Source of the DNA: Paraniabella defluvii | GTDB taxonomy: Bacteria; Bacteroidota; Bacteroidia; Chitinophagales; Chitinophagaceae | Length of the DNA stretch: 64,000 bases | Direction of reading: 5' to 3' | Assembly: GCA_019316985.1 (NCBI GenBank) | Contig: CP079215.1 | Coordinates: forward strand, 2,666,001-2,730,000 | Shown: positions 18,303-46,147 of the stretch, piece after piece | How the letters are laid out: each line of letters starts with the position of its first letter | How positions within the stretch are numbered: position 1 is the stretch's first letter | Notes under the pieces: model-generated | What the model saw: only the letters and a program-made list of their open reading frames with translations | Told to the model about the DNA's origin: nothing | Database searches by the model: none | Position numbers and translations under genes: made by a program

Positions 18303-18399
18303 AAACGGTGTGGGTGATTATTCCTGAACCTGACAGAGGGTAAATGTAGCTATTGTTTTCGATATATATATTATAAACGTTTTTAAAGACTTTTTAGTA

Positions 18400-18413
18400 T
18401 TGATTTTCATCCA
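18400..18413. promoter_or_regulatory. Near-match to an FNR-type site between bphP and the DUF4846 gene
   Basis: TTGAT-TTTC-ATCCA differs by one base from TTGAT-N4-ATCAA. It is about 104 bases upstream of bphP and 80 upstream of the divergent gene. Weak alone; noted because of the perfect sites at 29815 and 36259. Confidence 0.25.
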
Positions 18414-18487
18414 AGTACATTGTAAATAATGTTGCTGCCGCTATGGAATACATGCATAACCGTGTCTTTATTTCAAAAAAATCTTTT

Positions 18488-19263
18488 ATGACATTACACA
18501 TGTGGAGCCTGCTTTTCTTAATTGGCTGTAATCAAATAAAAGCAGAGCAGGAAAAAGCTGTCTCCGCCACTGCATCAGTTAATAATGTTGAAGTGTATGA
18601 TAATGTAAATGCTATCCCGGTACCCGATGGCTTCAAGCGACTAACCTGTAAGGAAGGCTCCTTTGGACATTGGTTAAGGAAATTGGCATTAAAACCTGGT
18701 AAAGAAGTGTACCTGTATAATGGTAGCCTGAAACCCAATCAGGACGCACAATTCGCTGTTATTGATATGTCGGTAGGGAAGAAAGATCTGCAGCAATGTG
18801 CAGATGCCGTGATGCGGCTCAGGGCCGAATTTCTTTTCGATCAAAAGCTTTTTTCTGCTATTGTTTTCAGCGATAACCTTGGTAAAAAATATGAGTGGAA
18901 GGAAAATAATAATAGAGCCCGCTTCCAGGCGTATCTTGACCGTGTATTTGGAATGTGTGGTACTGCATCGCTTGAAAAACAACTTCGTCCGGCCGCTCTC
19001 AGCAGTGTAGAGCCGGGAGATGTATTCATAAAAGGAGGCTTCCCGGGTCATGCGATGATTGTTATGGATGTAGCCGTAAATAAGCGGGGAACCGCTGGTT
19101 TATGTTGGCGCAAAGCTATATGCCTGCACAGGATATACATATAGTTAAGAATCCCGGCAATCCCGCCAGTCCATGGTACCCCGCCGATGATGTTCAGCCG
19201 GTTGTAACTCCAGAATGGACGTTTATGCCAGGCCAGTTAAAAAGATGGCAGGCAACTTTGTGA
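18488..19263 (+). CDS. DUF4846 lipoprotein (one frameshift)
   Basis: Exported protein of the DUF4846 family, function unknown. Starting at 18488 gives MTLHMWSLLFLIGC, a good lipobox with Cys14. The body shows G-S-F-G-H-W-L-R, L-Y-N-G, and the characteristic G-H-A-M-I-V-M-D-V-A. The frame breaks near 19092; after it, L-A-Q-S-Y-M-P-A-Q-D-I-H-I and S-P-W-Y are the family's conserved end. About 258 residues. An upstream ATG at 18443 would add 15 residues before the signal peptide and is less likely. Confidence 0.82.
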
Positions 19264-19360
19264 GATGTTACGGTAATATTGACCAGGATCATTATTTGAA
19301 TTGAGTTTTATCATAAGCCTCCTAACCGGTAAAAATTAGTTTTACACCATCTTGGCTAAA

Positions 19361-19715
19361 ATGCAACTATATATTTCGGAAAGCACCCGACCGGAGGATG
19401 TAAAGAATTTCTTTTCATCCTGTTATCCTTTTCTGAAAATTGAGCTTTATAAAATGGGAGAGAACAATACAACTGCCCCGGGTAAAAAGCATTGCCCGGT
19501 AAAGGATAAGTTTATGGATCTTCCCGGGGAAGGAGTTGTTGATATTCATAGTGATATTACTGTTGCCGAATTGGGAAACAGCTTTGCCTGTTTTTGGTCT
19601 CAGAACGGAAGTTTTCAGAAAAAGCGGAAATGTATGGGTAGCAACTTTGCTAACCGATAACTGGACGCTGCAGCAGCAAAACAATGCAGGCGAAGAAATC
19701 ACCAATAATCCCTGA
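19361..19715 (+). CDS. Conserved small protein of unknown function (frameshifted)
   Basis: Starts MQLYISESTRPEDVKNFFS at 19361. The pattern (a short beta strand, then P-F-L-K-I-E-L-Y, then V-A-E-L, then V-F-R-K-S-G-N-V-W with L-T-D-N-W-T-L-Q-Q-Q-N) is one I associate with a conserved small Bacteroidota protein of unknown function. A frame break near 19600 hides the last 35 residues. About 118 residues, cytoplasmic, no signal peptide. It converges on the receiver-CRP gene, with 24 bases between the stops. Confidence 0.65.
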
Positions 19716-19739
19716 TCCGAATCTAATAAGGCAGGTTTC

Positions 19740-20793
19740 TTAATTTGCTTTCATTGAGTATAACAATACTTCCCCTTTTATATCAATCAGTTTTTCTGCC
19801 TTAAAGTCTGAGAGGGTCCTGATCAGTGATTCAGTAGCAATTCCGGTAGCCTGGGCCAGGTTATCTCTTGATAACCTGATTTCTGTTGTATCCGGTAATT
19901 CTTCCTTAAACTTATCAAGCATTATTGCCAACTGGTACGCTACTTTTTTTTCGTAATGAATTGTAAGCAATATTCAACAGGCTTTCTTCTTTTTCCAGCA
20001 CATTGTGTGTAATCAGCTTTATGAACTGGCGGGCAACCTGCATGTCGGCCGACATCAAAACCAAAAAATCATCTTTAGGGATGATCATTATTTCGGCATC
20101 TTCCAACACTTCCGCGCTTTCCCGGTAAACTATATTTTCAAGAATATAAGTGTAGCCCAGGAAGTCGCCCTTGCTTAATACATTTGTTATCAGCTCTCTT
20201 CCCGTCGTTATTCGATTTAAAGGTTTTTACCTTGCCGCTTTTCACATAATACACCGCCCTGGGTCTTTGTCCTTCGGCATAAATCTGCTGCTTCTTTTTA
20301 TAATTATATACTTCCCTGTCTTCAGAGACCAGGGGTATATGATTTACATTTTTACATTGGTCAGAAAGTTATTGAATGAGTCAGCCCCTTCAATGTCGCG
20401 TGCCAGCTGCTGTTTTACAGCTTCTGACTTATGTAGCCTCATCTCTACGGCTTTCAGCAGTTCTATTCCTTCAAACGGCTTGGTAATGTAGTCGTCAGCG
20501 CCTAGTTCCATGCCTTTCCGGAAGTCTGTTTTTTCCGACTTTGCTGTTAAAAAAATAAAAGGGATGCTGTTGGTTTTAGGATGTTGATTCAACAGGTATA
20601 CCACTCCATAGCCATCTAATACCGGCATCATGATATCGCAGATGATCAGGTCGGGTACTTGCTCTATAGCTATTTCTGTGCCCAGTTTGCCATTTTCGGC
20701 AGTAATAACGCAGTAGTTGGACAGTTCCAGTATTTCAGCAATGTTATCTCTTACTTCGTCGTTATCTTCTATTACAAGAATTTTTTTCATCAC
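19740..20793 (-). CDS. Receiver domain fused to a CRP/FNR-type transcription factor (frameshifted)
   Basis: Response regulator whose output is a CRP/FNR fold. Receiver at 1-120: acidic pair Glu8-Asp9, phosphate-accepting Asp52 in D-L-I-I-C-D-I-M-M-P, Thr in F-L-T-A-K, Lys in I-T-K-P-F. A linker leads to a cyclic-nucleotide-binding fold (V-Y-Y-V-K-S-G-K-V-K-T-F, L-E-D-A-E-I-M-I-I-P), then a long helix and a winged helix with the recognition segment A-T-E-S-L-I-R-T-L. That keeps the E-x-x-x-R spacing of CRP and FNR. Frame breaks in an A run near 20346, near 20207 and near 19950 split it into pieces. No Cys cluster for an iron-sulfur centre is seen. It follows the kinase gene by 12 bases. Confidence 0.88.
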
Positions 20794-20805
20794 GGGCTTT
20801 AGGGG

Positions 20806-22060
20806 TTATTGAGGGATATGTATGGTGAAAACAGAGCCTTTTTCCAGTTCGCTTTTATATTCGATAGATCCATTCATCAGTTCTATATAGCGTAATATGA
20901 TGTTTAAACCCAATCCGGTACCCTGGATGTTTACCGCATTTCTGGCCCTGAAAAAACGCTCAAACAAATGAGCCTGGTCTTCTTCTGAAATGCCTATGCC
21001 CCGGTCTTCAATTGAAAGCACCAGTTCTTCCGGGTTAATATCACAGGTTAAATCGATCGTGCTGTTTTCCGGAGAAAACTTAATGGCGTTGGAGAGCAGG
21101 TTGATGCATACATTTTTAAGTAATCGCTCATCTATAACAACCGACCCGCCTCCCCTGAAATCTGTTTGAATCAGCTGACCGGTTTTGCAGTGAACCGACA
21201 TTTCATGAACCACATCATTTAAGGCCTCAAAACAGGCGGCTGCACTTAGCTGTTCGGGCTTTGCCTGCACGATACCCTCATCCAGTTTATCCAGCGAAAG
21301 GAAGTCATCGAGAATCATTTTCATATCATTTACAGCATGTTTAATGCGGTTGATATGCTTGATCCTTTACCGGGCTCGTTAAGGTCGTTATATTTTTCCA
21401 ATAAAAAAGAGGAGGATAAAATGGTGCTGAGCGGCGTTTTAAATTCGTGTGAAGCCATTGATACGAATTTAGATTTCATCTCACCCAGGTCTTTTTCGGT
21501 TTTTAACGCATCGCTTAATTCCAGCTTCGATTGCTCTAATGCCGACAGGGTTCCCTCAGCATCTTGGTGCGGTCTTCAATCTTTTTCTCGAGTGATACAT
21601 TAAGCTGTGTGATCTCTTTGGTAATCTGCTCCAGCTCTTCTTTTTGCCTGATTACTATTTCCTCCTGAAGCTTTCTTACAGTTATATTTATTACAAAGGC
21701 TATCACGAAAAGCTCGCTGTTTACGGTGTAGCTGCTTAAACTTACCTCCACCGGAAATACATCGCCATCCTTTCTTTGTGCGTACAGGTCTCTTCCATGT
21801 CCCATCGAGCGGGGCGTAGGATGCTTATAATAGCCCTCCCTGTAGTCTTCGTGCCGCGCTTTAATGGCAGGTGGTAATAGTATTTCGAGTGGCCGGTGAA
21901 AAACTTCTTCCTTAGTGTAACCAAAGTCCTTTTCAGCCTGCTTGTTGAAATTGATGATCAGTCCGTTCCGGTTGGTAACCACAATTCCAATGGTGGCATG
22001 GTCAAGGGCCTCAATCCAGTTTCGCTGATCTTCGTTGGTATGTTCAAAAAGCTGATGCAT
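20806..22060 (-). CDS. PAS-domain sensor histidine kinase, FixL-like PAS (frameshifted)
   Basis: Soluble histidine kinase with no membrane segment. PAS domain at about 15-125, a coiled-coil linker, HisKA (S-M-A-S-H-E-F-K-T-P-L), N box (N-L-L-S-N-A-I-K-F-S), G1 (D-R-G-I-G-I) and G2 (G-T-G-L-G-L). In the PAS, His70 (A-R-H-E-D-Y) and Arg90 (G-H-G-R-D) are 20 apart, as are the heme ligand His200 and Arg220 of Bradyrhizobium FixL. This pattern also occurs in PAS domains not known to bind heme. Frame breaks lie near 21557 and 21375-21325. Partner of the receiver-CRP gene downstream; overlaps or abuts terC upstream. About 418 residues. Confidence 0.9.
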
Positions 22061-28863: not shown

Positions 28864-29741
28864 CTAATCCCTATCCACACACGATTTATACGTATTCTTC
28901 ATCAGGGCTGCGATGGTCATAGGACCAACACCACCGGGAACCGGGGTGATAAATGAACATTTGGGAGCCACCTGCTCAAAGTCTACATCACCTACCAGCC
29001 TGTAGCCCTGATTTTTTAGAAGCGTCTTCCAGGCGGGTAATTCCTACGTCTATTACCACAGCTCCTTCTTTCACCATGTCGGCTTTTAAAAACTCCGGTT
29101 GCCCGATAGCCGCCACTATAATATCGGCCTGGCTGCATATTTCATTCAGGTTCTGGGTACGGGAGTGGCAAACGGTAACGGTACAATTCCCGGGATTGGT
29201 ATTATTGCTCAGTAAAATACTCATAGGGCGACCTACTATATTACTGCGGCCCAGCACAACGGCATGTTTGCCTTTGGTGGCAATATTATTATGTTCCAGC
29301 AGCAGCATAATGCCATAAGGAGTAGCGGGTATAAAAGCTTCGGCTTCGCCCATGATCATGCGACCTATATTTTCGGGATGAAAACCATCCACATCCTTGC
29401 TGGGGCTATAGCTTCAATTACTTTTCTTTCTGAAATATGGGCAGGTAAAGGCAATTGAACCAGTATACCATCTACCGACATATCTTCGTTCAGTTCCTGG
29501 ATCTTATCCAGCAGCTTCATTTCACTTATTTCTTCCTCGTATTCTATTAAGGTAGAAATAAACCCGATTTCATTACAAGCCTTAACCTTCGAATTCACGT
29601 ACGTTTGGCTCGCGCCGTTGGTACCTACCAGTATTGCCGCCAGGTGTGGAATTTTCTTACCTGTTGCTGCCCGCTGCGCTACATCTATTTTAACGGTATT
29701 CAATATAGCTTTGGCCGTCTTTTTCCATCCAGTAATTGCAT
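28864..29741 (-). CDS. folD: Methylene-THF dehydrogenase / methenyl-THF cyclohydrolase (frameshifted)
   Basis: Bifunctional enzyme of one-carbon metabolism (5,10-methylene-THF to 10-formyl-THF, with NADP). Start at 29741 gives [14 protein letters not shown] after restoring one A near 29727; catalytic Tyr/Lys in Q-T-Y-V-N-S-K-V-K, then [21 protein letters not shown] and the final P-G-G-V-G-P-M-T. Other breaks near 29390 and 29020. About 292 residues. It is divergent from the first SusC/SusD operon. Confidence 0.94.
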
Positions 29742-29814: not shown

Positions 29815-29828
29815 TTGATTTAGATCAA
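29815..29828. promoter_or_regulatory. Perfect FNR-type palindrome upstream of the first susC
   Basis: TTGAT-TTAG-ATCAA matches the FNR consensus TTGAT-N4-ATCAA at all ten fixed bases. It is centred 215 bases upstream of the susC start and 80 upstream of folD. Confidence 0.55.
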
Positions 29829-29844
29829 AATTAAATTTCATATA

Positions 29845-29959
29845 CTTACAAATATTAATATGTAAGGGTTGTTTAAACAATAGTTTTTAATTTTTTTAAA
29901 GAACTTTTTAAAAATTGTATTAAAAAAGGTCAACTTATTGTTAAAAAAATATAATTTAG
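29845..29959 (+). promoter_or_regulatory. Dyads and probable promoter for the first SusC/SusD operon
   Basis: Two more inverted repeats follow the FNR-type site: CTTACA-N10-TGTAAG (29845-29866) and the perfect palindrome TTGTTTAAACAA (29869-29880). A sequence close to the Bacteroidota -7 element (TAATTTAG, 29952-29959) follows a TTGTTAAAAA run and leaves a leader of about 75 bases. Confidence 0.4.
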
Positions 29960-30036
29960 TCCTAGCTGCTAATGTACCCTGCAACCAACCTCCAGGATCG
30001 TTTAGCTGCTTTTTTTTAAATAACAAAAAGTTTTAC

Positions 30037-33000
30037 ATGAGAAAAATTCTATTGCTTTTAGCAATGTTTATGGGATTTTCGTTTCTGGCTATTTCTCAAA
30101 CCAGAACGGTAACCGGAACGGTGGTTGATGAGGCAGCAGCCCCGATACCTTTTGCATCTGTTGCAATAAAAGGAACAAGTACCGGTGTTTCTGCTGACGC
30201 AGATGGAAATTTTTCCATACAAGCTGCTTCCAATGTTACTTTGATTGTTTCTGCAACGGGCTATGCCACTAAGGAAGTGGCAGCCAACTCAACTTCTTTA
30301 ACCATTGTTCTTGCCAAAGGCGGAACTGATGTTATTGAAGAAGTAGTGGTAACGGCAACCGGACAGCGGGTTAACAAAAAGACGGTAGGGTATGCTGCTA
30401 CCGTTGTAAGTGCAGAACGTTTAGTACAGGCGGCGCCCATTAGCGCAGCAACAGCTTTATCTGGTAAAGTACCCGGCTTACAAATTAATGTTACGGGGAG
30501 CGGCGTTAACCCATCAGTAAGCGTGGTGCTTCGTGGTTATCGCTCCATCACCGGTAACAACCAGGCGCTGATTGTTTTGGATAACGTTATTGTGCCTAAC
30601 GAAATGTTGGGAAACATTAATCCAAACGATATCCAGGACATTAACGTTTTGAACGGTTCGAGTGCTTCTGCATTATACGGATCCCGCGCATCTAACGGCG
30701 CCTTGATCATTACCACAAAAAAGGAACTCCCGGAAGAACCGATGTTAGGTTGGCTCAAACCGTAACCATAGCAAGCACTTCTTTCTTACCTAAATTCCAA
30801 ACCAGGTTCGGATCTGGATCAACAGGCTATGTTAAGATTTATGATCCTTATGAGAATCAGCAGTACGGGCCCGCTTACGACGGATCAATAGTTGAACTGG
30901 GTGAATATCCAACTCCGGGTGGACAAATTCAAAAAGTACCGTATAGTTATAAAGACAAAAATGGCAAAAGCAACTTCTGGCAACCGGATGTATCTTATCA
31001 AACAGATCTTTCATGTCAACTTCAACGGAAAGGGGAAGGTTCTTTTTTTCTGGCCAGTTTGTAACTAACGAGGGCACTATACCCGGTGATAGCTACAAGC
31101 GTGCTGCAGTAGGAATAGGGGAACTCAGAAAATTTATGACAACTTAAGCGTAGATTACTCGGTTCGCTATACTCAAAACTATACAAGACAAACAACACAG
31201 GCCGCCAGTATCTATGATTTACTGTTAAACTCTCCGGGCCATGCACCCATTACTTCTTATAAAAATTGGAAGGTGGATTCTTTTGCCATGCCCGATTATT
31301 ATTACAATGCTTATTATAATAACCCTTACTTCCTTAAAGATAATTACAGGTCGTTAGCAAGAAATGAATACCTGGTAGGAAACCTGTCATTAAAATGGTC
31401 TCCACTGCGGTGGATGGACCTGGTGGGTAAAGTAGGTATGACCGGCAGGAACTATTCCGCCAAAAGCTGGTCTGACAAGTATATGTTCAGCACTTACGCT
31501 AAAGACAGATCACGGCTCGTATAAAAATCTGATATATTGGGAGCTGTTTCCGACAATATGTTCTACACCAACACCCTGGTTGGAGATTTCCAGGCAAACT
31601 TCAAAAAGACCAATATTGAAAACTGGGACTTTAAGCTAAATATTGGTACGCAGTTGATACAGGACGATTCCAAAAACCTGAACGCCGGTATTTCCGGATT
31701 GGCGCTACCGGGGATCTTCAATCTGTCTAACCTTACTACTGTTCCTTCTGCAGGTGAAAATATTTCACAAGCCAGAACTATTGGTCTTTACGGAGAGTTG
31801 TACGCCACCTATAGGAAACTGGGCGCTACTTTACACGTAACAGGCAGAAGAGACCACGTATCAATATTAGACCCTGGTTTTAATACATTCTTCTATCCGT
31901 CTGCAGATTTAGCGATCGTACTTTCGGATGCAATTCCGGCAATAAAAAATAATCCCAATATTAACCTGTTAAAAATACGCGGCGGTATTTCTAATGTAGG
32001 TAACGTAAACTTAAATCCTTACAGCACGGAGCCTACAGTGGGACAAGGTGCTGGTTATCCTTATAACGGTATTGTGTCGTATACTATCGGCGACCGATTG
32101 GTACAAAAAGGACTGAAACCTGAGTTTACTTTAGGAACAGAAGTTGGTTTTGATTTTGAGGTCTTCAAAAGGGTATCGGGTGAATTTACTTACTATGTAA
32201 ATAAAACCAAGAACCAGACGTTGCCTATTACCATTGCTTCTTCATCGGGTTACTCTGGTTTGTTGAGCAATGTAGGTTTAACCCGCGGAGCCGGCGTTGA
32301 AGCGTCTGTGAACGTAAAAATAATAGAAAGGGATGATCTCAGACTGGCTATAGGTGCCAATTACACCTATAATGATAACAAGATTGTTGATCTTGGAATT
32401 CAGGATATCAACAGGTTTGCGTTATTTACTTATGGAAACGGATCGGGTGTTTATGCTGCAAATGGTTTGCCATTCCCTGCTTATTTTGGTACTACGCATG
32501 TAAGAGACTCCGCGTCAGGAAAGGTAATTGTAGATCCGGTAACCGGTTTGCCAACAGTGAATACGAATATAAGCTATATGGGTAATACCCAACCCAGGCA
32601 CAGGGCAGGTGTAAACCTGGATGTAGAATATAAGAATTTTGGCTTAAGAGTATTGGCTGAATATAGGGGCGGTTATGTTATGTATGCCGGGGCAGGTCCT
32701 TCTTATGATTTCTCAGGGGCAGGTATTAACACCGTTATGTTTGACAGGGAGCGCTTTGTATTCCCGAATTCTGTTTACAAAGACCCCGCAACCGGCCAGT
32801 ATGTTGACAACACGAATGTAACTATTGCTGATGGTAATGTGGGCTACTGGACGCAGGATCAAAGAAGAGGTATAACAGAAAACTATATTATCTCGGGAGA
32901 TTTTTGGAAGTTAAGAGAGGTATCTCTTTCTTATAATCTTCCTAAGAGCTTGTTTAACAATTCCAGATTTTTCAAGGGTGCAGCGATCAACTTTATCGGA

Positions 33001-33153
33001 AGAAACCTGATCATCCTGGTACCTAAAGAAAATGTTTACGCAACTGATCCCGAGTACAGCGATAATGCAAATGGAAACTACCTGGGTATAAGCACTCTGG
33101 CTCAAAATCCACCGGCAAGATATTATGGTGCTACACTCTCGTTAAATTTTTAA
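30037..33153 (+). CDS. SusC-like TonB-dependent outer membrane receptor 1 (frameshifted)
   Basis: Outer-membrane barrel that imports large substrates with its SusD partner. Signal peptide MRKILLLLAMFMGFSFLAIS, a carboxypeptidase-regulatory-like beta domain (V-T-G-T-V-V-D-E, about 22-100), a TonB box region (E-E-V-V-V-T-A-T-G), plug (L-S-G-K-V-P-G-L-Q-I), then a barrel ending in aromatic L-S-L-N-F. Frame breaks near 30730, 31040, 31125 and 31525. About 1039 residues. It starts an operon with susD (gap 12 bases) and a DUF1735 lipoprotein. No STN domain and no adjacent sigma/anti-sigma pair, so transenvelope signalling is not indicated. Confidence 0.93.
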
Positions 33154-33165
33154 ATATCATTTGAT

Positions 33166-34832
33166 ATGAATACAAATAAGAATAGAATATATGTGCTTTT
33201 GATGCTGACGAGTATCGTAGTCTTTTCGGCATCCTGCAAAAAATTCATGGATATCAACAAAAATCCGAATTCACCAACCGGAACTGTTGAGGAATCGTTT
33301 TTACTAGGTAAAGCTATTGTGGCCTGGTCCAGAACTTATCCTGCTGCAGACAGCTATGGTGGCGAAATGAGCGGATCTATTGCCAATCCCGGAGGCGTTT
33401 CTGGTTTTGCTGCATTGATCAATTATAATTTCGGCCCTGGTGATTATGGTTTCTGGTGGGGATTATATGATAATATAACCGACCTTAATGCCATTATAGC
33501 AAGGGGTAATGCGGATGAAAGCTATAAGAATTATGCGGGCATCGCGAGGATTATAAAAGCAGTACATTTCCAGGCCCTGGTAGATGCGTACAACAATGTG
33601 CCCTACTCTGCAGCAAACAAGGGTATTGAAAATATGACCCTGAGTATGATAATGGCCCTGATATTTATAAAAATATCGCTTCATTGATCGACGAAGCATT
33701 TGCCGATTTTGCGGCCGCCAATACTGCTGCTTTAAAACCAACCAGCAACACCGATCCTTTATTCGGCGGTGATTTACTCAAGTGGAAACAGTTGGCCAAT
33801 ACAGTTAAATTAAGGATCATTTTACGGGGTGGTGATAAAGTGAGTTTTGCCAATAAAACCTTTACAGCAGACGGTTTCTTAACACAGGATGCAATGGTAC
33901 AGCCCGGCTTTACCAACCAGGATGGTAAAACCAATCCTACCTGGGGCCGGGTATATACAGCGGCCGGCGCTGCAACAGGCCTTACCCAACGCGTACCTAC
34001 TTTCTTTATGTTAGGTTTTTACGATGGCACCAAGATCAACGATTATTTCCGCGGTCGCCTTTTATACAGAACCTTTCCTACGCCAGGTGTAAATCAGCTA
34101 GGCGAGCCTGGTGGTTCAGGTGCGGTTGTAAAACAGCCTAATGACTGGTATTTAACCCTCGCAGCTACTCCTTCTGCTACCAACTATGCGGCTTTAGGTA
34201 TCTTTAAAGGCCCTGCGGCTCCCCAGCCGGTAATGTTAGCTGCAGAGAGTTACTTCTTACAGGCTGAAGCACAGGTGCGTGGAATTATTCCCGGTACTGC
34301 TAAAACCAGCTTCAATAATGGAATCCTGGAGTCTTTCAGGTATTTAAATAAGGATGAATCAGGAGGCATATCAACCAAATTTGTGGATACAGCTAATGGC
34401 GCCATTGCTGCTTCCGCTACAACAGCGCGGTTTATTCAGATTAATCCTGCCAAAGAAACAGAGATTTATCTGAGAGATAATGCAGGCAATCGCCTGGTGA
34501 ACTTTGACCTGGCTACAACCGATGAGCAAAAAATTGAAGCCATCATTACTCAAAAGTATATTGCGCATAATATGATCAGGGCTGATGAATCGTGGAATGA
34601 ATATAGAAGAACCAAGTATCCAGTTTCGAGCAGTGATAATTCGGCCGCGAACAGGTATAATAGCATTGCGTCTACATTATCGCCATCTACACAGCCAGAT
34701 AAATTACCAACCCGTTTGCAGTATCCATCATCCGAATTTTCTTACAATGCGGATAACGTGAACCAGCAAAAAGGATCTGGAACAGGAGGCGGTGTAAGTC
34801 CGCTATTGGATAAAATATTTTGGGCTAAATAA
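33166..34832 (+). CDS. SusD/RagB-like surface lipoprotein 1 (one frameshift)
   Basis: Substrate-capturing lid for the adjacent SusC barrel. Lipobox F-S-A-S-C followed by K-K-F-M-D-I-N-K-N-P-N-S, which is the standard SusD start; anchored at Cys24. Helical TPR-like body, with a frame break near 33645. The C-terminal W-N-E-Y-R-R-T-K-Y-P motif is typical of the SusD-like family that includes PF12771-type members. About 555 residues. Substrate unknown. Confidence 0.9.
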
Positions 34833-34843
34833 ATTTAAAAAAT

Positions 34844-35772
34844 ATGAAGAAAATACTTTTTTAATAACGGTCATCTCAGTTCTGTCACTGCAGTCTTGCT
34901 TGAAAGGGAGAGATATGGTGCTGGACCCTGATGCGGTTCCTAGTGTTGTAGAATTCGGAAATGCTACAGGATTAGTACATGCAGCTACAGATTCTTTTAG
35001 AGTGTATTCAAGTTATCCAATTTCACCTTCTGATTCTTTGGAAATTCCCATCAATTACGCTGGTTCGGGTACAGCTCCAAAGGATATTGTTGTGAGCATA
35101 GGGTTGAACAACCAACTATTGACCAATTATAACACGGCTAAAGCATCATCTACTTGGGTTACTAACGTGTTACTACCCAGTAATGTGTATACATTACCAA
35201 GTTCTGTTACTATTAAACAGGGTACCAAAGGAACTACATTGGTAATTCCATTTAATCCAAGTTTAATAAATCCTTCAGGTATATTCGCACTGCCTTTGCA
35301 AATTACCGACGCTTCGGGAGTAACAGTTAGCAGAAGTTTTGGAAAAATAATTGTAAGGGTAGCTCCTAAGAATGCTTATGATGGTCTTTATACTACTGTA
35401 GCAGGTTATGTACAAAGATATTCCGCTCCCGGCGTGCCGTTGAATACTGATGGATTAACCGGTAATATGTCTACCTCCGGTGATGTGACCCTTACAACCA
35501 CAGGCCCTTACAGTGTTAAGATTACAGGATTAAAATGGGCCAATAACGGCGGTATCGGCGGTATTGATGATTTAATAGCTACAATTGATCCGGCTACAAA
35601 TCTTGTTACAATGAGTTCAACTGTTGCTTCTACCAGTTTGAGAAATACTCCTGGCAAAATAAACAGTTATAACCCTGCAACTCAAACATTTACTTTGAAT
35701 TTTGACTGGAACCCAACTGGGGCTACCAGAGAAATTACCGGGTTGATATTAAGATACAGAGCTACACGCTAA
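34844..35772 (+). CDS. DUF1735-type surface lipoprotein (one frameshift)
   Basis: Third gene of the first Sus operon. MKKILF plus a T run with one T missing near 34862, then L-S-L-Q-S-C as lipobox. Beta-rich body with an N-terminal DUF1735-like Ig fold (about residues 40-160: D-S-L-E-I-P-I-N-Y, V-T-I-K-Q-G-T) and a lipocalin-like C-terminal half (Y-D-G-L-Y-T-T-V-A-G-Y). Such proteins often help SusD bind glycans at the surface. No enzyme motif. Followed by a strong terminator. Confidence 0.8.
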
Positions 35773-35803
35773 ATGAGATAAATAATACTGCAAACTTAAA
35801 AAT

Positions 35804-35834
35804 AAGGCTGTCTCAATCTGAGACAGCCTTTTAC
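35804..35834 (+). terminator. Rho-independent terminator of the first Sus operon
   Basis: AAGGCTGTCTCA and TGAGACAGCCTT are perfect 12-base arms with a 3-base loop, followed by TTAC and T-rich sequence. Confidence 0.9.
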
Positions 35835-35863
35835 TTTATGTGTTTACTAACTGAAATAAAGTA

Positions 35864-36060
35864 CTATACACCAGGAGTAACTTCCACATCATCAAGATGC
35901 ACCTCTGTACCGTCTGGTAACGTACCATGAAATGTTACAAATATTTTTGGCATTTGATATGGCCCTGTTGGAGGTTCACTTCTAAAGGTTCCTGAATAAA
36001 CTGCCGGCGTTCCTGGAAATTAACCAACAAGGCGCTTATATTATATAACCCCCATTGCAT
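35864..36060 (-). pseudogene. Fragment of a protein-coding gene
   Basis: On the minus strand, a frame of about 50 residues ends in H-L-D-D-V-E-V-T-P-G-V at 35864, preceded by K-I-F-V-T-F-H-G-T-L-P-D-G-T-E-V. With one base restored near 36016 it extends to an ATG at 36060 (65 residues). The composition is clearly protein-like, similar in style to the C-terminus of a beta-sandwich surface protein with a Val-Asp-Asp-Val end. No start-site or signal peptide. It reads as the remnant of a lost gene between two Sus operons, not a working one. Confidence 0.45.
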
Positions 36061-36258
36061 CGAGTATAGATAAAATTATAGTTTGTTTGATGGTTAGAAA
36101 TATCTGAATTGTGGGGGAATTTTTCTACATTGGCAGGCCTCGTTAATTATGACGGGTTAAACTTCGGTAAGAATCTATAACGAATAGATTGGCGGTAGTC
36201 GCTAACCTCTTGCTTTTGAATGCTTTTGTTTGTATCAAAAAAAAGCTATACAGAACGG

Positions 36259-36272
36259 TTGATTTGTATCAA
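36259..36272. promoter_or_regulatory. Perfect FNR-type palindrome upstream of the second susC
   Basis: TTGAT-TTGT-ATCAA, all ten consensus bases, centred 237 bases upstream of the susC start. A half-site with the same spacer word (TTGT-ATCAA, 36230-36238) lies just before it. Confidence 0.55.
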
Positions 36273-36339
36273 TATTTATGGAATACGATTATTTATAATA
36301 AATATTTGTAACTGTTTTATTTTCAATTTATTATAATGT

Positions 36340-36419
36340 ACAATCTATTTTTAAGTCTATTATTTGATAATAAATTATTAATGAAATGTAATTTTTTTGT
36401 TAAAAACATTCTAACTTGG
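36340..36419 (+). promoter_or_regulatory. AT-rich promoter region of the second Sus operon
   Basis: Contains TTTTTAAGT, ATTTGATAAT and AATGTAA words in the same order as at 41283-41331 before the third susC. It ends in TTGTTAAAAA and TAACTTGG (36412-36419), close to the Bacteroidota -7 element, 84 bases before the start codon. Confidence 0.4.
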
Positions 36420-36502
36420 TAATCGCTAAGCTTAGGGACATGGTGAATGCATGTCCGTTTAATCCGGGGTCAAACCAATTTGTTTAACAAAAAAATATTT
36501 CA

Positions 36503-39500
36503 ATGAGAATAATTCTATTGCTTTTGGCAATGTTGGGATTTTCCTTTATGGCATCTTCCCAAATCAGGACCATTACCGGCACTGTTTCAGATGAAACGGG
36601 AGCGCCCGTTCCCTTTGCGTCCGTTTCGGTAAAAGGTTCTACAACCGGCGTATCTGCTGATGAGAAAGGTAACTACAGCATCAGCGCTGCAACTGGCGCT
36701 ACCTTAATTTTTACGGCAACCGGCTATTCCACTGTTGAAGTTGTGGCTACAGGGAGTACGGTAAACGCCACTTTGCAAAAAGGGGAGGGACAAGTAATTG
36801 AAGAAGTAGTTGTAACCGCCTTGGGAATAAGAAGAGAGAAAAGACAGCTTACCTACAGCACTCAGGAAGTAAAAGGTGAAACCTTGGTACAGGCTAAACA
36901 GGACAATGTTGTCAATTCGCTCGCCGGCAAAGTTTCGGGTGTGCAGATATCCAATTCAAGTGGTATGGCAGGAAGCTCTTCCCGCATTACCATACGAGGT
37001 AATGTATCTTTATTACAGGACAACCAACCATTGTTTGTGGTAGATGGTGTTCCTATAGATAATAATGAGCCGGGTGGCATCGACGTTTTCAGTCAGGGTG
37101 CTAATAATACCGCGCTTAGTCAGGGAAGTACTTCCAACAGGGCTATTGATATTGACCCAAACATCATTGAAACGGTAACCGTATTGAAAGGTGGCGCCGC
37201 TACAGCCTTATATGGCGCTGCGGCAGCAAGGGGAGCTATTCTTATTACTACAAAAACGGAGCCAGATCTTCTAAGCCGACTTTTAAAATAAGTTCGAGCT
37301 TAAAGTTCGATAGCCCTATCCTGGGAGAATACCAGAATAAATATTCGCAAGGGCTCAACGGGCAGTTTATTAACGGTAGTATCCAGGGTATTGCAAGCAG
37401 CCAGTCTTACGGGGCACGGGTTGATACTCTAAAAGTGGATGGCGTGCCGGTGCAGATCTACGATCCAAGAGATATATTCTTTCAAACAGGTGTGACAACA
37501 GATAATAATGCCAGTGTAAGCGGCGGTACTGATAGGTCAAAATACCTGGTTTCTTATTCTTATTTAAACAATAAGGGGATAATACCCACTACAGCTTTTA
37601 AAAGAAACTCATTCTTTGGGAAATTTACGAATCAGATTACAGATGATTTAACAGCAACTATTTCGCTAAATTATGTAAACACGGTAAATAACCGAACCCA
37701 AGAGGGCAACGGGCTTACGAATCCTTTGTGGGGTATTTTAGCAGCTCCTATTACATGGAACCCATTACCAGCAACATGGCCTGATGGCACACAAAGATTA
37801 TATAGAACATTATCCAGGAATAACCCATTTTATCAGATAGAGAACTCGGGATTTGTATCTACAGTAAACAGGTTTTTGCCAACAGTAAACCTCGCATATA
37901 GTCCTGCAAAATGGATAACTATCACTGAGAGAATAGGTATGGATGTCTATTCAGATAATGCAAGATATCATGAGGATAAAACTATCAACAGTGGTGTATT
38001 TGGAAATCAGACAGGGGAGTTTCTAATAGGTTACAAGAGTACCGCCAGCTAAACCATGATTTTATAGTAACCCTGCAAAAGGACTTAACCAAAGACTTTT
38101 TCGGATCCATATCTGTGGGAAACAATATTCTCTCTAATTTTTCAGATACTTATACCCAATCAGGTATTGGACTTAATATACCCAAATTCTACAATATAAG
38201 TAACACAAGCACTTCTTTGGTAAGCGATTTTGTTTCTAAGTATAGAAAAGTTGGGTTTTACGCCCAGGCTAATCTGGAGTATAATAAAATGTTATACCTG
38301 AGTTTGACCGGACGTTATGATGGAAGCTCTTTATTAGCAGCAGACAAACAATATTACCCTTATGGTTCCGCGGGGCTGGGTTTTGTGTTTAGTGAGCTAA
38401 TGAACAAAAGCAGTGCATTCAGCTATGGTAAAGTTCGTATTTCGTATTCTTCTGTCGGTAATGATAATATCCCGGTTTATTCTACAAGTACCCCATACGT
38501 TTTGGGCAGCGCTATCAGTATCAACCACGTGAACTTTCCCTACAATGGCTCCAACGGTGCAAGGTTAACAAATGTTCAAGGCAATCCTAACTTGAAAAAT
38601 GAAAGCCTGAATGAGTTTGAGATTGGAACAGAGCTGAAGTTTTTAAACAATCGTCTTTCTTTTGAAGGCAGCTATTTTAACAGAGAGTCTAAAGACTTGT
38701 TAAGCCAGATACCTATTAACCCCAGTTCAGGTTTTTATATAAAATAGATAATGTAGGCACTATCCAGAATAAAGGGTTTGAGTTTTTATTGAGTGGAACT
38801 CCTGTTAAGACAAATAATTTTAATTGGGATGTAAATCTGAGTTTTACACGTATACGCAGTACCGTAACTTCGTTAGGTGCAGGGGTTGACCAGATTCAAT
38901 TAGGTGGTTTTGGTAATGCCGGTGTATTCCTCTTTAAAGACAAGCCATACGGAATCCTCTATGGATTGGGATATCAGAGAAATGAGCAAGGACAAATATT
39001 GGTGGATGATGACGGTCTGCCTATCCCTACAGATAATTTTGTAGCAATAGGTGATGTAAATCCGGATTTTAACGCTGGACTGTATAATACATTTTCCTAT
39101 AAGGGGCTTTCATTGAGTTTTCTGTTTGACTGGAAAAAAGGAGGGGATGTGCTAAACCTGGATAATAACTATATGTGGTTTTATGGAACATCTAAAGTAA
39201 CAGAGCAGGGTAGAGAAACACCATTCGTAGTGCCAAATTCTGTTTATGCAAGCAATGGCTCACCCAATACTACTGCGGTAAGCGCCCAGGACTATTGGCC
39301 AACGGTTTCTGGTATTACTGAATCTAACATAGAAGATGGTAGTTACATCAAATTACGTACCCTGAGCCTTGCTTATACTGTATCAACAGGAAGTAAAAAA
39401 TTACCTTTTAAATCTCTGACGTTTAGCGTTGGGGGCAACAATCTCTGGATACATGCCCCTCACTTTACTGCGGGTGATCCTGAAGCAAATGTTTCAGGCG

Positions 39501-39580
39501 GTACAAACGGACAGGGAGTTACAAACTTCCAAACGCCTACAACAAGGTCATTTATTGTAGGGTTAAACGCAACATTTTAA
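36503..39580 (+). CDS. SusC-like TonB-dependent outer membrane receptor 2 (frameshifted)
   Basis: Same architecture as receptor 1: signal peptide ending S-Q, carboxypeptidase-regulatory-like domain (I-T-G-T-V-S-D-E), then E-E-V-V-V-T-A-L-G-I-R-R-E-K-R, plug with L-A-G-K-V-S-G-V-Q-I and T-I-R-G-N-V-S-L, V-V-D-G-V-P-I-D-N, and a barrel ending in V-G-L-N-A-T-F. Frame breaks near 37258, 38048 and 38742. About 1026 residues. The A-L-G-I-R-R-E-K-R TonB-box variant and the K-G-G-A-A-T-A-L-Y-G segment set it apart from receptors 1 and 3. susD follows after 32 bases. Confidence 0.93.
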
Positions 39581-39612
39581 GTAACTCCATTTTTTCTTTA
39601 AAATTTTTTCAG

Positions 39613-41068
39613 ATGAAAAATAAAATAGTATACGGACTAATTTTTATAGCGATATTGTTTAGCGTGACCGGTTGCAAGAAATTTTTGGATGTAAATAAAG
39701 ATCCTAACAATCCAACAGAGGCACCTGAAGACCTGCTTTTACCGCCCATTATTACAGATATTGGAACAACCGTTGCCGGTGGAACCTTCTCTGTACAAAA
39801 TACTTCAGGTATTGCATTGATAAATGCATACTGGATGCAGCAGTTATCTTTAAATCAGCCATTGCCTCAATATGAAAGTTATAAATTTACGACCGGCGAT
39901 GCAGAGTATACCTGGGGGCAAATGTATATCAACATATTGCAAAACTTAAAACGTTTAGGAGACGCGGCGCAAGCTAATCAAAACCATTCGTACGGAGTGA
40001 TAGCAAAAGTTTTAACGGCTTACACATTGGGTGTTACTACTGATATGTGGGGATGTACCGTTTACAGAAGCTTTTGAGGGAAGTAAGCCAAAATATGATA
40101 AACAACAGGATCTTTACGTATTAATACAAAAGATGCTTGATGACGCAATTGCTGAAAATCAGCTTGATCCAGGAAATTTAACTCCTGGTGCTGATGACTT
40201 CCTGTTCGGTGGCGATATGGATAAGTGGGAACAATTCGCATATGCTTTAAAAGCAAGGCACTATATACACCTTACTAAAGCACCAGGGCATACCGCTGCT
40301 GCTCAGGCAGATTTGGCCTTAGGCGCTCTTGAGCATGCATTTACAAGTTCGGCAAGTGATGCAACACTGGATATCTACTCCAGTGATGCAGGGCATGAAA
40401 GCCCCTGGTTCAAAAATACTGAATTGGCTCAGGGTGGTGTTGTGTTGGGAGCCACACTGGTAAACTTCTTAATAGCCAATTCTGATCCACGATTGCCAAT
40501 TATTGCTAATAAAGGCTCTCAAGGAACTTATTTGGGCAGAGTAAGTACTTCTGCTGTTGTTCCGGCTGTAGGTATATATTCAACGTTGGGAGATTTTTTT
40601 GGAGGCGCTAATCCCAATGGAAGTGACGCTGGTGCCTCAGCTCCCATAGCTATTTTACCTTATTCAGAGCTTCAGTTTATAAAGGCCGAAGCTACTTTTA
40701 TAAAATCAGGAGCAGCGGCCGCACAGCCAATTTATCAGCAAGCAATAAAAGACAACATGGCAAAATTGGGATTGGATATAACCAGTGCGCCTGTGACCAG
40801 CTATCTCGCAGCAAGGGGTACCCTTACCAATACAAATGCTCTGCAAAGAATAATGGAAGAAAAGTCAATCGCCAATTTGCTTTCCATTGAAAACTTTAAT
40901 GACTGGAGAAGAACAGGATTTCCGTTATTGACAATAGTTGCCGATCCGGAAGCCGGTATAACAACCATTCCGAGGAAATATCAATATTCTCAGCAGGAAA
41001 TAAGCAGTAATCCCCAACCAGAGAATACAAATGCTAAAATAACCGACAGAGTGTGGTGGGATCAATAA
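39613..41068 (+). CDS. SusD/RagB-like surface lipoprotein 2 (one frameshift)
   Basis: Lipobox F-S-V-T-G-C then K-K-F-L-D-V-N-K-D-P-N-N. One break near 40060 in the G run of the conserved W-G-D-V-P-F-T-E-A segment. C-terminal L-S-I-E-N-F-N-D-W-R-R-T-G-F-P is the SusD-like signature. About 485 residues. Surface-bound partner of receptor 2. Confidence 0.9.
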
Positions 41069-41112
41069 GTCGGAAATTTCAAATACTATATAAAGAAAAA
41101 GAATAGGTTACG

Positions 41113-41141
41113 TCCCTGGTTGAATAAACCAGGGATTTTTT
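41113..41141 (+). terminator. Rho-independent terminator of the second Sus operon
   Basis: TCCCTGGTT and AACCAGGGA arms with a short loop, followed by TTTTTT, 45 bases after the susD stop. Confidence 0.88.
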
Positions 41142-41280
41142 GTATTATTTGTTAAACTGGTATGCGATTTATTGTTTAATACTTTTGCTAAAGGAAAAAA
41201 TATTGTATTCAGTTTGTTGATTTTCGTCAATAAATTTTCTGCCTTATATTACAAATAAGTTAAATTAATGACTTGGTTTT

Positions 41281-41340
41281 AATTTTTAAGTTAATTTAAT
41301 ATTTGATAATCAAAGAGTTTTAAAATGTAAATTATTTCAA
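41281..41340 (+). promoter_or_regulatory. Upstream segment resembling the one before receptor 2
   Basis: TTTTTAAGT, ATTTGATAAT and AAATGTAA occur in the order seen at 36350-36391. A dyad TTTGAT-A-ATCAAA (41302-41314) has FNR-like half-sites but a one-base spacer, not four. Confidence 0.35.
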
Positions 41341-41389
41341 ACTGTTTGCTATTTGATAAAATAATTGATTTTTTCCAAAAATAGATCTT

Positions 41390-41408
41390 CTATAACGTAA
41401 CGTTATAG
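41390..41408. promoter_or_regulatory. Perfect inverted repeat, operator-like
   Basis: CTATAACGT-A-ACGTTATAG: two 9-base arms around one base, 166 bases upstream of the third susC. The AACGT/ACGTT core resembles operators of dimeric LacI- or TetR-type repressors. The rest of the 500-base gap 41069-41573 is AT-rich with a -7-like TAGCTTTAG at 41524-41532. Confidence 0.5.
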
Positions 41409-41573
41409 CTACTAGAGATTTCATTTTGATGATAATTCAAAAAAAAGTGATCGTTTTTTAGATTTTGTTTAATAAAGTTTGTATTTAATAAAGTAATCAT
41501 ATTAATTTAACTAAAAATTTACATAGCTTTAGCCCCGTATTTTAAATTTTCATCTTAAACAAATAATTTTAGC

Positions 41574-44500
41574 ATGAGAAAATTCAGGCTACTGCTAACA
41601 GCTACCCTATTACTCATTACGAGTCTTGCATGGGCCCAGACCAAAACGATAAAAGGAACCGTGACTGACGAATCTGGTTTGCCCATTTCATTCGCTACCA
41701 TTAGTATAAAGGGAACGAATATCGCTAACGCGGCTGACGATCAGGGTCGCTATACAATACAGGCGAGATCTGGAGCTACTTTAGTAGTTTCGGCTACCGG
41801 TTATGCAACTAAAGAAGCTGTAATAGGCAGCGACGTTGTTAATATTATTTTAAGTCCTGGTAACACACAGGTTGTAGACGAAGTGATGGTTATTGGGTAC
41901 GGAGCGGTAAAAAAGAAAATTTTACAGGTTCTGCGTCGGTAGTTAAAGCCGATGTTTTCGAAAACCGCCCGGTTACCTCATTTGAAAAAGCGTTACAGGG
42001 GCTGCTGCCGGTGTTCAGGTAACAAGCGTTTCAGGCCAGCCAGGCGCTACATCTACCGTACGTATTCGCGGGGTTGGTTCGTTTGCTGCATCCAGCACAC
42101 CACTTTACGTAATAGACGGTGTTCCGATAACGAATGGTGATTTAACTTCTACAGCTACTACCGCGGATGTTTTGGCTACTTTAAATCCTAACGACATCGC
42201 TTCTGTTACTGTTTTAAAAGACGCAACAGCAGCTGCTATTTATGGATCAAGAGCCGGTAACGGGGTTATACTTATCACGACGAAGCAAGGCAAAATTGGC
42301 CGTACCAAGTTGAATTTGAATGCCAGTACCGGGTTTTCAAATCAGGCGGTGAAATATCACGATGTAATGAATGCATCAGAATATTATAAAATGTATTGGG
42401 ATGTTTATTATGCTGACAGTCTTAAGAAATATAATGACCCGGCGAAAGCGGCTCTTTTAGCAAATGCGGCTACCAACGCTAAATTAGCTGTAAACCCTTA
42501 TAATACTGCCAACCCGTACATAGGCGGAGGGGCGTTGGCCGATGGGGCCGCTTTGCTGTACGATACAGACTGGCGCGATGAAGTATTAAGGAAAGGTATT
42601 ACTAATAATATTGACCTCTCGGTTAGTGGAGGTAATGAAAAGACCAAATTCTTTTTTTTCGGGAGGGTATTTCGATCAAAAGGGGATAATTATCGCTTCC
42701 GATTTCAAACGCTATTCCAGCAAGTTAAATATCAATACAGATATTACCAGTTTTCTGAAAATAGGAATCAACAATACGCTTTCGTATACCATACAAAACA
42801 CACCTCCCGGCGCTACAGGATCTGCTAATCCGGTAAATTTTGCCAACCAAACGGCAAATATTTATCCTCTGTACGTTTATGATGCCAACGGTAATATCGT
42901 TTTGGATGCTTCAGGAAATCCTACCTACAGCTATAAAAACCCCGTAACACCTGATTTTAATCCGGTTGGTCTATCTAAATTGAATGAGTATAATGTGAAA
43001 ACCGCACGTGCGATCACCAATCCGTATGTAGAAGTAAGATTTTTAAAAGACTTTGTTGCTAAATCTTCTTTAGGTGTTGACTATATATCACTTCGCGAAC
43101 GTCAGTTTTACAATATGGAACATGGGGACGGTGTTAGCGTAAAGGGACGTGGATATCGCTATTCAAAAGAAGACTTGTCCATTACCATTGCAAACACCTT
43201 AACTTATAATAAATCATTTGGCGAACATAATGTTAATGTGTTATTGGGCCAGGAAGCATACCGTACTAAGTTCGAAAACCTGTATGCTCAGGCTACTGGT
43301 TATCCGTTTCCTGGTATCGATGAGCTGATTGCAGCATCAACGCCAAATACAACGCAATCTTATTTTACTGAAAAAGGCTTTCTTCTTATTTTTCTCGTGT
43401 GGAGTATAATCTGGGGCTAAGTACTATCTGTCCGGAAGCTTACGTAGAGACGGCTCTTCAGTTTTTGGCGCAGACAGGAGATTCGGAACATTTTATTCTA
43501 TAGGCGGTGCCTGGCGTATAGGAAAAGAAGAGTTTTTGCAGTCAGCCAATTGGATCGATGATCTGAAGATAAGAGCGAGTTATGGAACTTCGGGCAACGA
43601 TAGAATTGATCGTTATGCTGCACAGGGATTATATAGCCTCGGTAGGAATTATGAGGGGCAGTCAGGTATTAACTATACGCAATTAGCTAACCTACTATTG
43701 CAATGGGAGCAAAATTCCACGTTGGATCTTGGGTTGGAGTTCTCGTTATTTAAGGGAGGTTTAAGCGGTGAAATAGGATACTATAAAAGAGGAGCGCAAG
43801 ATATATTGTTTGATAAACCATTGTCAAGGCTTACAGGCTTTAATACCATTCCGACTAACTTGGCGTCGATGGACAACTATGGTATAGAAGTTTTATTAAA
43901 TGGAAATCCTGTAAGAACTGCAAACTTTAACTGGAACGTGTCATTTAACATTACATCCAATAACAACAAGATTCGGAAGATGACTCAAGAGCAGGTGATT
44001 GATGGAACAAAAAGATGGACTGTTGGAGAAGACAGGTATCAGTGGTATTTGAGAGAGTACGCTGGTGTGGATCCTGCTGACGGTAGACCTATGTGGTATC
44101 AGGACGAAGTGGTAGATGGAAAGCCAACAGGCAAAAAAATCACTACTAAAAACTGGTCGAGTGCAACAAGGTATGAAGGATTTGGGTCTGCGCTACCTAA
44201 ATTTACAGGAGGTTTCAACAACTCCTTTACCTATAAACAGTTTGATTTAGATATACGTACTTATTATTCACTGGGCGCTAAGATCTATGATAATTTATAT
44301 GCGAATTTGATGCACAGCGGAGGATCAGTGGGTAAACAGCTTGCTACGGATATTTATGGCCAGTGGAAAAATCCTGGAGATGTTACAGACATTCCGAGAT
44401 TTGTTATTAACAATACCGATTTGGGAAATAACGAGTCAACCCGCTTCCTTTTCAACGGTTCTTTTATGAGGGTTAAAAATATCAGCCTTGGCTATAGCCT

Positions 44501-44681
44501 TAATCCCGATCTTTTGAAAACCCTGCAGTTGTCCAATTTAAGGATCTATTTTATGGCAGAAAACCCTTTTACGTTTGCTGCGCATAAAGGCATGGATCCT
44601 GAAGTTGAAATTACCGGGTTGGCCAATAATGATATCCCTAATGTTAAGACATTTACTTTCGGAATTAATGTTGGATTTTAG
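41574..44681 (+). CDS. SusC-like TonB-dependent outer membrane receptor 3 (frameshifted)
   Basis: Signal peptide [22 protein letters not shown], carboxypeptidase-regulatory-like domain (I-K-G-T-V-T-D-E), classical TonB-box end [10 protein letters not shown], plug with R-I-R-G-V-G-S-F and [24 protein letters not shown], and a barrel ending F-G-I-N-V-G-F. Frame breaks near 41920, 41995, 42655 and 43375. About 1036 residues. Closest to the common SusC type; paired with susD 20 bases downstream. Confidence 0.93.
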
Positions 44682-44701
44682 TTATTAGTAAACTATTGAA
44701 A

Positions 44702-46147
44702 ATGAAAAAAATAACACGATATTATATATAATTACCATTTCCCTCTTTGTAGCATTTTCTGCTTGCAAGAAGGAATTTCTTGAAGTTTCTCCCACTCAGC
44801 AGATTAATGCCAAAGAAGTGTTTTCTTCGTTGGAAAAGATACAGGCTGCAATGACCGGCATTTATGACCTGACTACTTTTTCGGGTTATACTAATAATAT
44901 GATCTTAAGTGCTGACGTGAAAGGAAACGATGTGATGATTGTAAGCGGCGCGGCTAATTATAACCGTTTTGTTGCGCAGTACCAGTTTATTGAAACGGTA
45001 AACAATGGCGATGTGGCTACCTGGTGGGAGTATAGCTATAAAGTAATTTCTAATGCAAATCAATTTGTAGCCAATATTCCCGGTGCGCCCATTACCGAGG
45101 CTCAGAAGAATGAATATTTGGCAGAAGCAAGGGCGTTGCGGGCCTATACCTATTTTTGGCTGGTTAGGTGGTTTGCGCAACCTTACAGTGTAAATCCTGA
45201 TGCTTTAGGAGTACCTATCTTAAGGGAACCACTAGGACCTAATGATGTATCTCCAGACAGGGGTAAGGTAAAAGAAGTGTACGATTTTATTATTGAAGAT
45301 TTGAAATTCGCTGAAGCGAATCTCCTACGAGCCGGTCAAGTGTTTACCGCATGCGGGTGCCGGTCATTCAAGGTATTCTTGCCAGAGTTTACCTGACAAT
45401 GGGTAACTGGCCTGAGGCTAGCAAATATGCAAAATTAGCCAGGGCTGGTAAGCCTCTGGCTGCAGCGTCTGCGTTATTAACCGGGTTCAATAATCCTACA
45501 AATGAATGGATCTACGCCATTAACGTTCGCACAGACGATAACCAGGGCTTTTTGGCTGTATCGTCGTTTTATGATCCTTATGATATTGGCTATTCCAGTT
45601 TTAGAGTAACTGATGACTTTTTTAACTCGTTTGCAGATAATGACGAAAGAAAAAGCAGTTTTTGGTAAAAGTAGCCCCACCGCCGCAGCCAGCACCGGCG
45701 CTTACAGAAGAAGAGGTGAAGGATATCTGATCAATAAATTTGATTTTAACACTACTCCTGCTAATAATCAGGTATTAATGCGTTCAGCAGAAATGTACCT
45801 GATAGAAGCTGAAGCTGAAGCCAGACAAGGCGGAGCCAATGAAGCAGCTGCCAAAGCAGCATTATTGGAAGTGCAAAAAGGGCAGGTGTTGCAACTGTAG
45901 CATCATCCAATACTGGTAATGCACTTATAGAAGAAATTCTTACAGAGCGCAATAAAGAGTTGTATGGAGAAGGACACAAGTTTTTTGATCTGCTGCGCAC
46001 CAATAAAGGAGTGAATAGAACAGGATCTACCGTTCATTGGAAGATAGTAAATTTCCCATCGGGGCAGACCGTTTAGTATCTCCTATTCCGCAGGCCGAGT
46101 TAGATGCAAATCCTGTATTGAAACCTCAACAAAATCCTGGGTATTAA
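44702..46147 (+). CDS. SusD/RagB-like surface lipoprotein 3 (frameshifted)
   Basis: Start MKK at 44702 with a break in the first codons (near 44715), then I-T-I-S-L-F-V-A-F-S-A-C-K-K-E-F-L-E-V-S-P-T-Q-Q, a standard SusD lipobox and mature start. A-R-A-L-R-A-Y-T-Y-F-W-L-V-R matches the classical RagB/SusD fold (PF14322/PF07980 type), unlike partners 1 and 2. More breaks near 45345, 45665 and 45885. Ends with R-N-K-E-L-Y-G-E-G-H-K-F-F-D-L-L-R, the family signature. About 482 residues. Confidence 0.9.

Follow-up and report, generated by a model that had tools for sequence, protein, structure and literature searches.

The 64,000-nucleotide stretch of the Paraniabella defluvii chromosome analyzed here (the window; contig CP079215.1, positions 2,666,001 to 2,730,000) carries three successive SusC/SusD operons beside a divergently transcribed folD, and each of these operons is preceded by a palindrome of the FNR/DNR-box type. 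The gap between folD and susC1 contains an exact copy, TTGATTTAGATCAA, at 29815–29828; a second exact copy, TTGATTTGTATCAA, occupies 36259–36272 before the second operon; and a third, TTGATTTTCGTCAA, with one mismatch, lies before the third operon at 41217–41230, 357 bases upstream of the susC3 ATG (41574). The two exact copies of TTGAT-N4-ATCAA stand precisely where the original prediction, made from the sequence of the window, had located them, with their centers 215 and 237 bases upstream of the ATG codons of susC1 (30037) and susC2 (36503), respectively; the third was absent from its list. On the minus strand, folD is represented by a frameshift-broken 5′ part (29003–29741, the start codon at about 29741 being read from the sequence). 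The plus-strand array comprises susC1 (30037–33153, frameshifted in this assembly), susD1 (33166–34832; SusD-like/SusD-like_2, split over two frames), and a gene for a BT_3987-like_N protein (34900–35772) in operon 1; a frameshifted susC2 (36503–39580) and susD2 (39613–41068; SusD-like_2, with the family match within 40031–41068) in operon 2; and a frameshifted susC3 (41574–44681; family match within 43419–44678) followed by the start of susD3 (44818–45396; SusD-like_3) in operon 3.

Within the genome of the window (G000 among the genomes compared; a single contig of 6,134,315 bases, rated 72% complete) there are 20 copies of the exact motif, as against five of the reversed control pattern. 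At the resulting rate of 0.21 exact sites per 64 kb, two in one window are unusual (Poisson P of about 0.019), yet not decisive on their own. The window contains six sites with zero or one mismatch against 3.55 expected, a number reached by 18 of 100 shuffles, and because this count is ordinary, the one-mismatch relative upstream of bphP (18400), named in the original prediction, is at chance level. The decisive evidence is instead conservation in other genomes of Niabella, the genus in which named relatives place the genome of the window. A copy with zero or one mismatch is present in the folD-side gap of all 17 Niabella genomes (G000 and 16 others, among them G012, whose folD match is incomplete), and in 14 of them it is exact. 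A folD match was obtained in 58 of the 59 genomes searched, and the best 30 of these 58 loci, 14 of them from other genera, were read: no such copy lies within 700 bases of folD in any of the 13 readable loci of other genera (G035, whose sequence ends at folD, is left out). Three of these 13 (G029, G031, and G032) are the informative ones because a SusC-like N-terminus adjoins folD there. Across 80 named loci, a site with at most one mismatch was found within 500 bases in nine of nine Niabella-type loci and in three of the 71 non-Niabella ones, the latter three all being one-mismatch sites and about two being expected from the window rate.

The same picture emerges from the promoters of the folD-linked arrays read (n=32, from 16 Niabella genomes, with some arrays followed over part of their length and the N. 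hibiscisoli locus L191 counted under G012). The exact motif is found in 19 of these, as against a mean of 0.07 and a maximum of 2 in 300 dinucleotide shuffles, and a copy with at most one mismatch in 29 (shuffle mean 1.63, maximum 6). The box lies between −185 and −266 from the start codon in 28 of the 29, the exception being the third site of the window at −357. An open scan of 5-base gapped palindromes over the 32 promoters returned TTTTT-N3-AAAAA as the commonest (21) and TTGAT-N4-ATCAA as the second (19); these are raw counts, with a shuffle baseline for the second only. Judged by this conservation, the palindromes are not chance occurrences, and their earlier description as regulatory-looking, FNR/DNR-type elements ahead of SusC/SusD operons is supported.

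The conserved sites read TTGAY-N4-RTCAA, with both half-sites conserved symmetrically. The information content is 1.81 bits across the ten positions of the core, compared with 0.37 upstream of it, the core value being inflated because the anchors were chosen by their match to the motif; the clustering of positions and a run of T residues at +14 to +19 are free of this inflation. Several further elements recur at fixed distances from the palindrome, namely a second palindrome with at most one mismatch at +53/54 (5/29 promoters, weaker copies being present in several others), TTTT[CG][TA]AAA at −15/−16 (9/29), and GTTN8AAC at +75/76 (10/29). The latter two are both seen at a fixed palindrome distance in the susC upstream regions of L225, L226, L230, and L231, and none of the three is clearly seen in the three promoters of the window. 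For boxes resembling TANNTTTG, no single spacing was found in the susC promoters. In G005 (L226, 11729–12401), an extra exact palindrome precedes an open frame of 194 amino acids between two susC operons, which is perhaps the remnant of a lost operon.

The box is a signal of this locus, not of susC genes. A general role at susC genes, toward which the original prediction pointed, does not hold in this genome: a site with at most one mismatch lies within 300 bases in just one of 35 other susC upstream regions (L053, 31 bases before the estimated start), in a partial susC list (56 of 506 candidates scored in the family search, susC2 not being listed) with many starts made uncertain by frameshifts and eight regions without an N-terminus. 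In the seven genomes read at both ends (G001, G002, G003, G005, G007, G008, and G014), the array is flanked by folD and a small gene, which is DUF3467 by Pfam in G003 and has an alike N-terminus in the other six; no DUF3467-like flanking gene was seen within the 13 kb read in G006. Elsewhere, 11 of the 20 exact sites of the window's genome overlap open frames of at least 110 amino acids, and 15 stretches around sites of G005, G010, and G015, among the places listed, share no intergenic target, the only repeat falling inside one coding gene. The targets that were found to be conserved are the operons linked to folD and, in some species, the gene of the candidate regulator considered below.

The SusC/SusD spot beside folD (30037–45396 in the window; L224–L235) is a variable receptor locus among closely related Niabella. 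We compared 19 full array SusC proteins from 10 genomes, G010_2 being excluded as incomplete. In G005, G010, and G014, folD is 93–95% identical and the best SusC pairs are 27–34% identical, and between G008 and G010, with folD at 77%, one shared SusC stands at 78%. A counter-case to swapping is provided by G005/G015 and G010/G015, which retain SusC at 88%. When aligned on the box, with the box itself excluded, the promoters are 69–73% identical in pairs with SusC at 29–36% (G005_2/G014_2, G014_2/G010_1, G005_2/G010_1, and G005_1/G014_1). A pair with SusC at 88% (G015_2/G010_1) has promoters 69% identical, a likeness similar to that of the pairs with divergent SusC. The maximum in an off-register control was 48%; the likeness is limited to one clade, the median over 406 in-register pairs being 41%, and gapped alignments of the promoter regions discriminate poorly (shuffled mean 67%). 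From these comparisons we infer that the receptor genes have probably been replaced downstream of retained promoters.

We consider it probable, though well short of assured, that the palindromes serve as operators for a Crp/Fnr factor controlling the folD-side SusC/SusD operons, the likeliest binder being a Crp/Fnr protein of about 207 residues. Its gene is linked to one that we take, from the translation, to be isocitrate dehydrogenase (icd). In several genomes (L305, L307, L308, and others) the convergent gene next to it presumably encodes an NRAMP metal transporter, to judge from its translation. A single clear icd-linked orthologue is present in all 17 Niabella genomes, with 63–78% identity to the G008 protein and as a fragment in G000; the next matches are at most 36% identical. 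Weaker orthologues extend beyond Niabella to G019 (60%), G035 (58%), and G020 (53%). The protein shows the Crp/Fnr architecture of a cyclic nucleotide monophosphate-binding (cNMP) beta-roll and a winged helix-turn-helix (HTH), as indicated by a PF00027 match and a structural model (predicted local distance difference test 83) with matches to CRP/FNR folds. No Pfam HTH model matched it, the HTH being seen by alignment and in the model. By template-modeling (TM) score its closest fold is FNR (up to 0.79), and its best solved relative is the Cytophaga hutchinsonii cyclic nucleotide binding regulatory protein 3dn7 (E 1.5e-25; also ranked first by E-value among the fold-search matches).

Crp/Fnr members that bind TTGAT half-sites have, as a rule, an ExxSR recognition helix. 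The icd-linked protein has such a helix, PETFSR, in all 17 Niabella genomes, and the surrounding PETFSRFKHL is intact throughout (in a shifted frame in G000); PETFSR is identical in Pseudomonas DNR (3dkw). DNR is an NO sensor whose response depends on heme; its comparison with the icd-linked protein covered sequence, helix, and fold. Among the six cNMP-domain proteins each of G006 and G016, the icd-linked one is the sole common orthologue (61.7%; next pair 37%). Its gene is itself preceded by the box in four of the 17 Niabella genomes (exact in G001, G007, and G016; one mismatch in G013), and the non-Niabella G035 likewise has a one-mismatch box in its own crp promoter. In the crp promoters of G001, G007, and G016, a TANNTTTG box follows the palindrome by 7–8 bases. 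Bacteroidota promoters follow a −7/−33 consensus, which was used to place the −33 element; in these three species the palindrome would overlap this putative element, which suggests that the crp gene might be autorepressed there. The N-terminal [4Fe-4S] cysteine cluster characteristic of the oxygen sensor FNR was not seen in the aligned N-termini of the icd-linked orthologues. Control by oxygen, to which the original prediction alluded, cannot be read off the box, as the candidate regulator shows no such cluster.

Taken on sequence grounds, we infer that the icd-linked Crp/Fnr protein would bind the box as a dimer that places its PETFSR recognition helices into the two TTGA(T/C) half-sites, usually 185–266 bases before the susC start, and that the bound dimer would switch the susC operon on or off. 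In some species, the second copy 53–54 bases downstream would add a binding site on roughly the same side of the DNA, and binding of the protein to its own promoter may occur in some as well. Several observations weigh against this assignment. G019 and G020 hold an orthologue, yet their folD gaps lack the box. The match to DNR is distant by sequence (E 0.0019) and poor over the whole fold (TM-score 0.53, rank 35), and ExxSR helices are common among other small Crp/Fnr proteins. As G016 is 90% complete, a regulator shared with G006 could be missing from its assembly. No box with zero or one mismatch is found in the crp promoter of 13 of the 17 Niabella genomes, including G000 (best match with at least two mismatches), and three of the 32 array promoters (G003_2, G010_2, and G004_3) are without a box. 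Further, the promoter counts are not independent events, because the promoters are related by descent.

The original prediction had singled out another protein as a natural candidate to bind the palindromes, the receiver-cNMP-HTH_Crp regulator encoded in the window (19726–20790, minus strand; frameshifted, its domains being taken from the G008 relative, a REC-cNMP-HTH_Crp protein), perhaps acting with the neighboring PAS histidine kinase. In the window its gene is some 9 kb away from the array, relatives being at about 11, 22, and 41 kb from it in G003, G008, and G001, and full-length relatives occur in 11 other Niabella (G001, G003, G004, G005, G007, G008, G009, G011, G012, G014, and G015; identity to the G008 protein of 52–74%, the G012 relative being in two pieces). 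However, none was found full-length in G002 (91% complete), G006 (99%), G010 (100%), and G016 (90%), all of which have exact palindromes before susC, nor in G013 with its exact folD-side palindrome, and the recognition helix of the regulator reads ESLIR rather than ExxSR. The absence of a full-length relative from genomes keeping exact sites, together with this helix, makes it quite an improbable binder. That the binder is another Crp/Fnr paralogue, or not the same one in every species, is less far-fetched, although we regard it as unlikely. Several small proteins of the Crp/Fnr family are encoded in each genome, many of them with an ExxSR helix, and among the matches listed one or the other of the related YETISR and AYETVYK groups is present in 14 of 17 genomes. 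Against it, the receiver-CRP, ETVIR, and SRLLK groups, as traced by query-protein searches, are missing from several genomes, and G006 and G016 have only the icd-linked orthologue in common. The ETVIR and SRLLK groups were accordingly discarded as universal binders for their patchy distribution; for the YETISR and AYETVYK groups and the cysteine-rich ESAIR group the assessment comes from 50 loci, among which the remaining groups are patchy as well, and the comparison of paralogues across genomes was partial.

The IHF consensus is WATCAANNNNTTR. That a protein outside the Crp/Fnr family, such as an IHF/HU-like architectural protein, recognizes the box could appeal to an IHF-like match somewhere in 15 of the 32 promoters (mean 2.4, maximum 7 in base shuffles), but only six of 29 promoters have an IHF-like match in register with the box, for which reason an IHF-like site was rejected, and the symmetric conservation of the two half-sites is that expected for a dimer; we hold a binder of this kind to be highly doubtful. 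Being an inverted repeat with T-rich sequence behind it (+14 to +19), the palindrome would also be compatible with an action in RNA, as a leader hairpin or a weak terminator. The stem would, however, consist of five mostly A-T pairs, and across 24 distinct sites no pair has changed on both sides and the innermost pair is C-A in four; for want of paired changes this explanation was rejected and is extremely improbable. Finally, chance palindromes from AT-rich intergenic DNA might be argued for from the unremarkable one-mismatch count of the window, but the abundance of the exact motif in the array promoters relative to the shuffles refutes this, as do its restricted position and clade, and the probability left to it is practically nil.

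The preferred assignment of the box to the icd-linked Crp/Fnr protein has partial precedents. Pseudomonas DNR reportedly binds a motif resembling TTGATnnnnATCAA (PMC1274295), the same 14-base palindrome, and the candidate regulator shares with DNR the recognition helix and the predicted Crp/Fnr fold, with a weak overall likeness. The targets differ, being denitrification or anaerobic genes for Pseudomonas DNR/FNR and SusC/SusD operons here. Another parallel is Cur/BT4338 of Bacteroides, a regulator of the Crp family that controls genes for sugar use and is predicted to regulate itself (PMC3878776; PMC6989115), in a phylum where cyclic AMP has gone undetected (PMC3878776; PMC6989115; PMC10294740). 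In both systems a Crp/Fnr-like protein of the Bacteroidota would act through a palindromic operator that lies ahead of genes for carbohydrate use as well as ahead of the regulator gene. However, the Cur box is given in the same texts as wwwTATGTTnTAnAACATAwww with 834 bound places, whereas the box described here is TTGAY-N4-RTCAA, with one SusC/SusD locus and, in some species, the regulator gene as its known conserved targets; the conserved sites thus do not carry the Cur operator, as judged from these sites and not from a Cur-motif scan. SusR-like and hybrid two-component systems likewise control SusC/SusD promoters, with predicted motifs that are direct repeats about 21, or 67–77, bases apart and not a palindrome (PMC3878776). 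Among the listed titles and opening lines of abstracts of open-licence PMC articles, we found no report of this box before SusC genes in Niabella or its relatives.

Crp/Fnr-like control of sugar-use genes is thus already known from Cur/BT4338, and what is new here is the different box and the differing receptors under a constant promoter. We tentatively suggest, as a possibility rather than an expectation, that an exchangeable receptor locus has come under a DNR-like Crp/Fnr switch: the one to three SusC/SusD operons beside folD would have had their receptors swapped between species while the promoter and the fixed spacing of the box were kept, such that an incoming receptor would fall under the same switch. 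If true, this would add a second Crp/Fnr-type control of SusC/SusD operons in Bacteroidota, with the FNR/DNR box taking the place of the Cur box, and name a testable regulator for these operons. It would also point to a fixed locus where one outer-membrane receptor gives way to another under a constant promoter, the switch rather than the receptor being kept, and would make the signal sensed by a Crp/Fnr protein without the FNR cysteines a direct experimental question.

Elsewhere in the window, the gene of the receiver-CRP regulator belongs to a minus-strand cluster (15514–22060) with genes for a heme oxygenase, a phytochrome histidine kinase, and the PAS histidine kinase. The receiver-CRP and phytochrome genes, like folD and susC1 to susC3, are each split over several frames, and the assembly looks rich in frameshifts.

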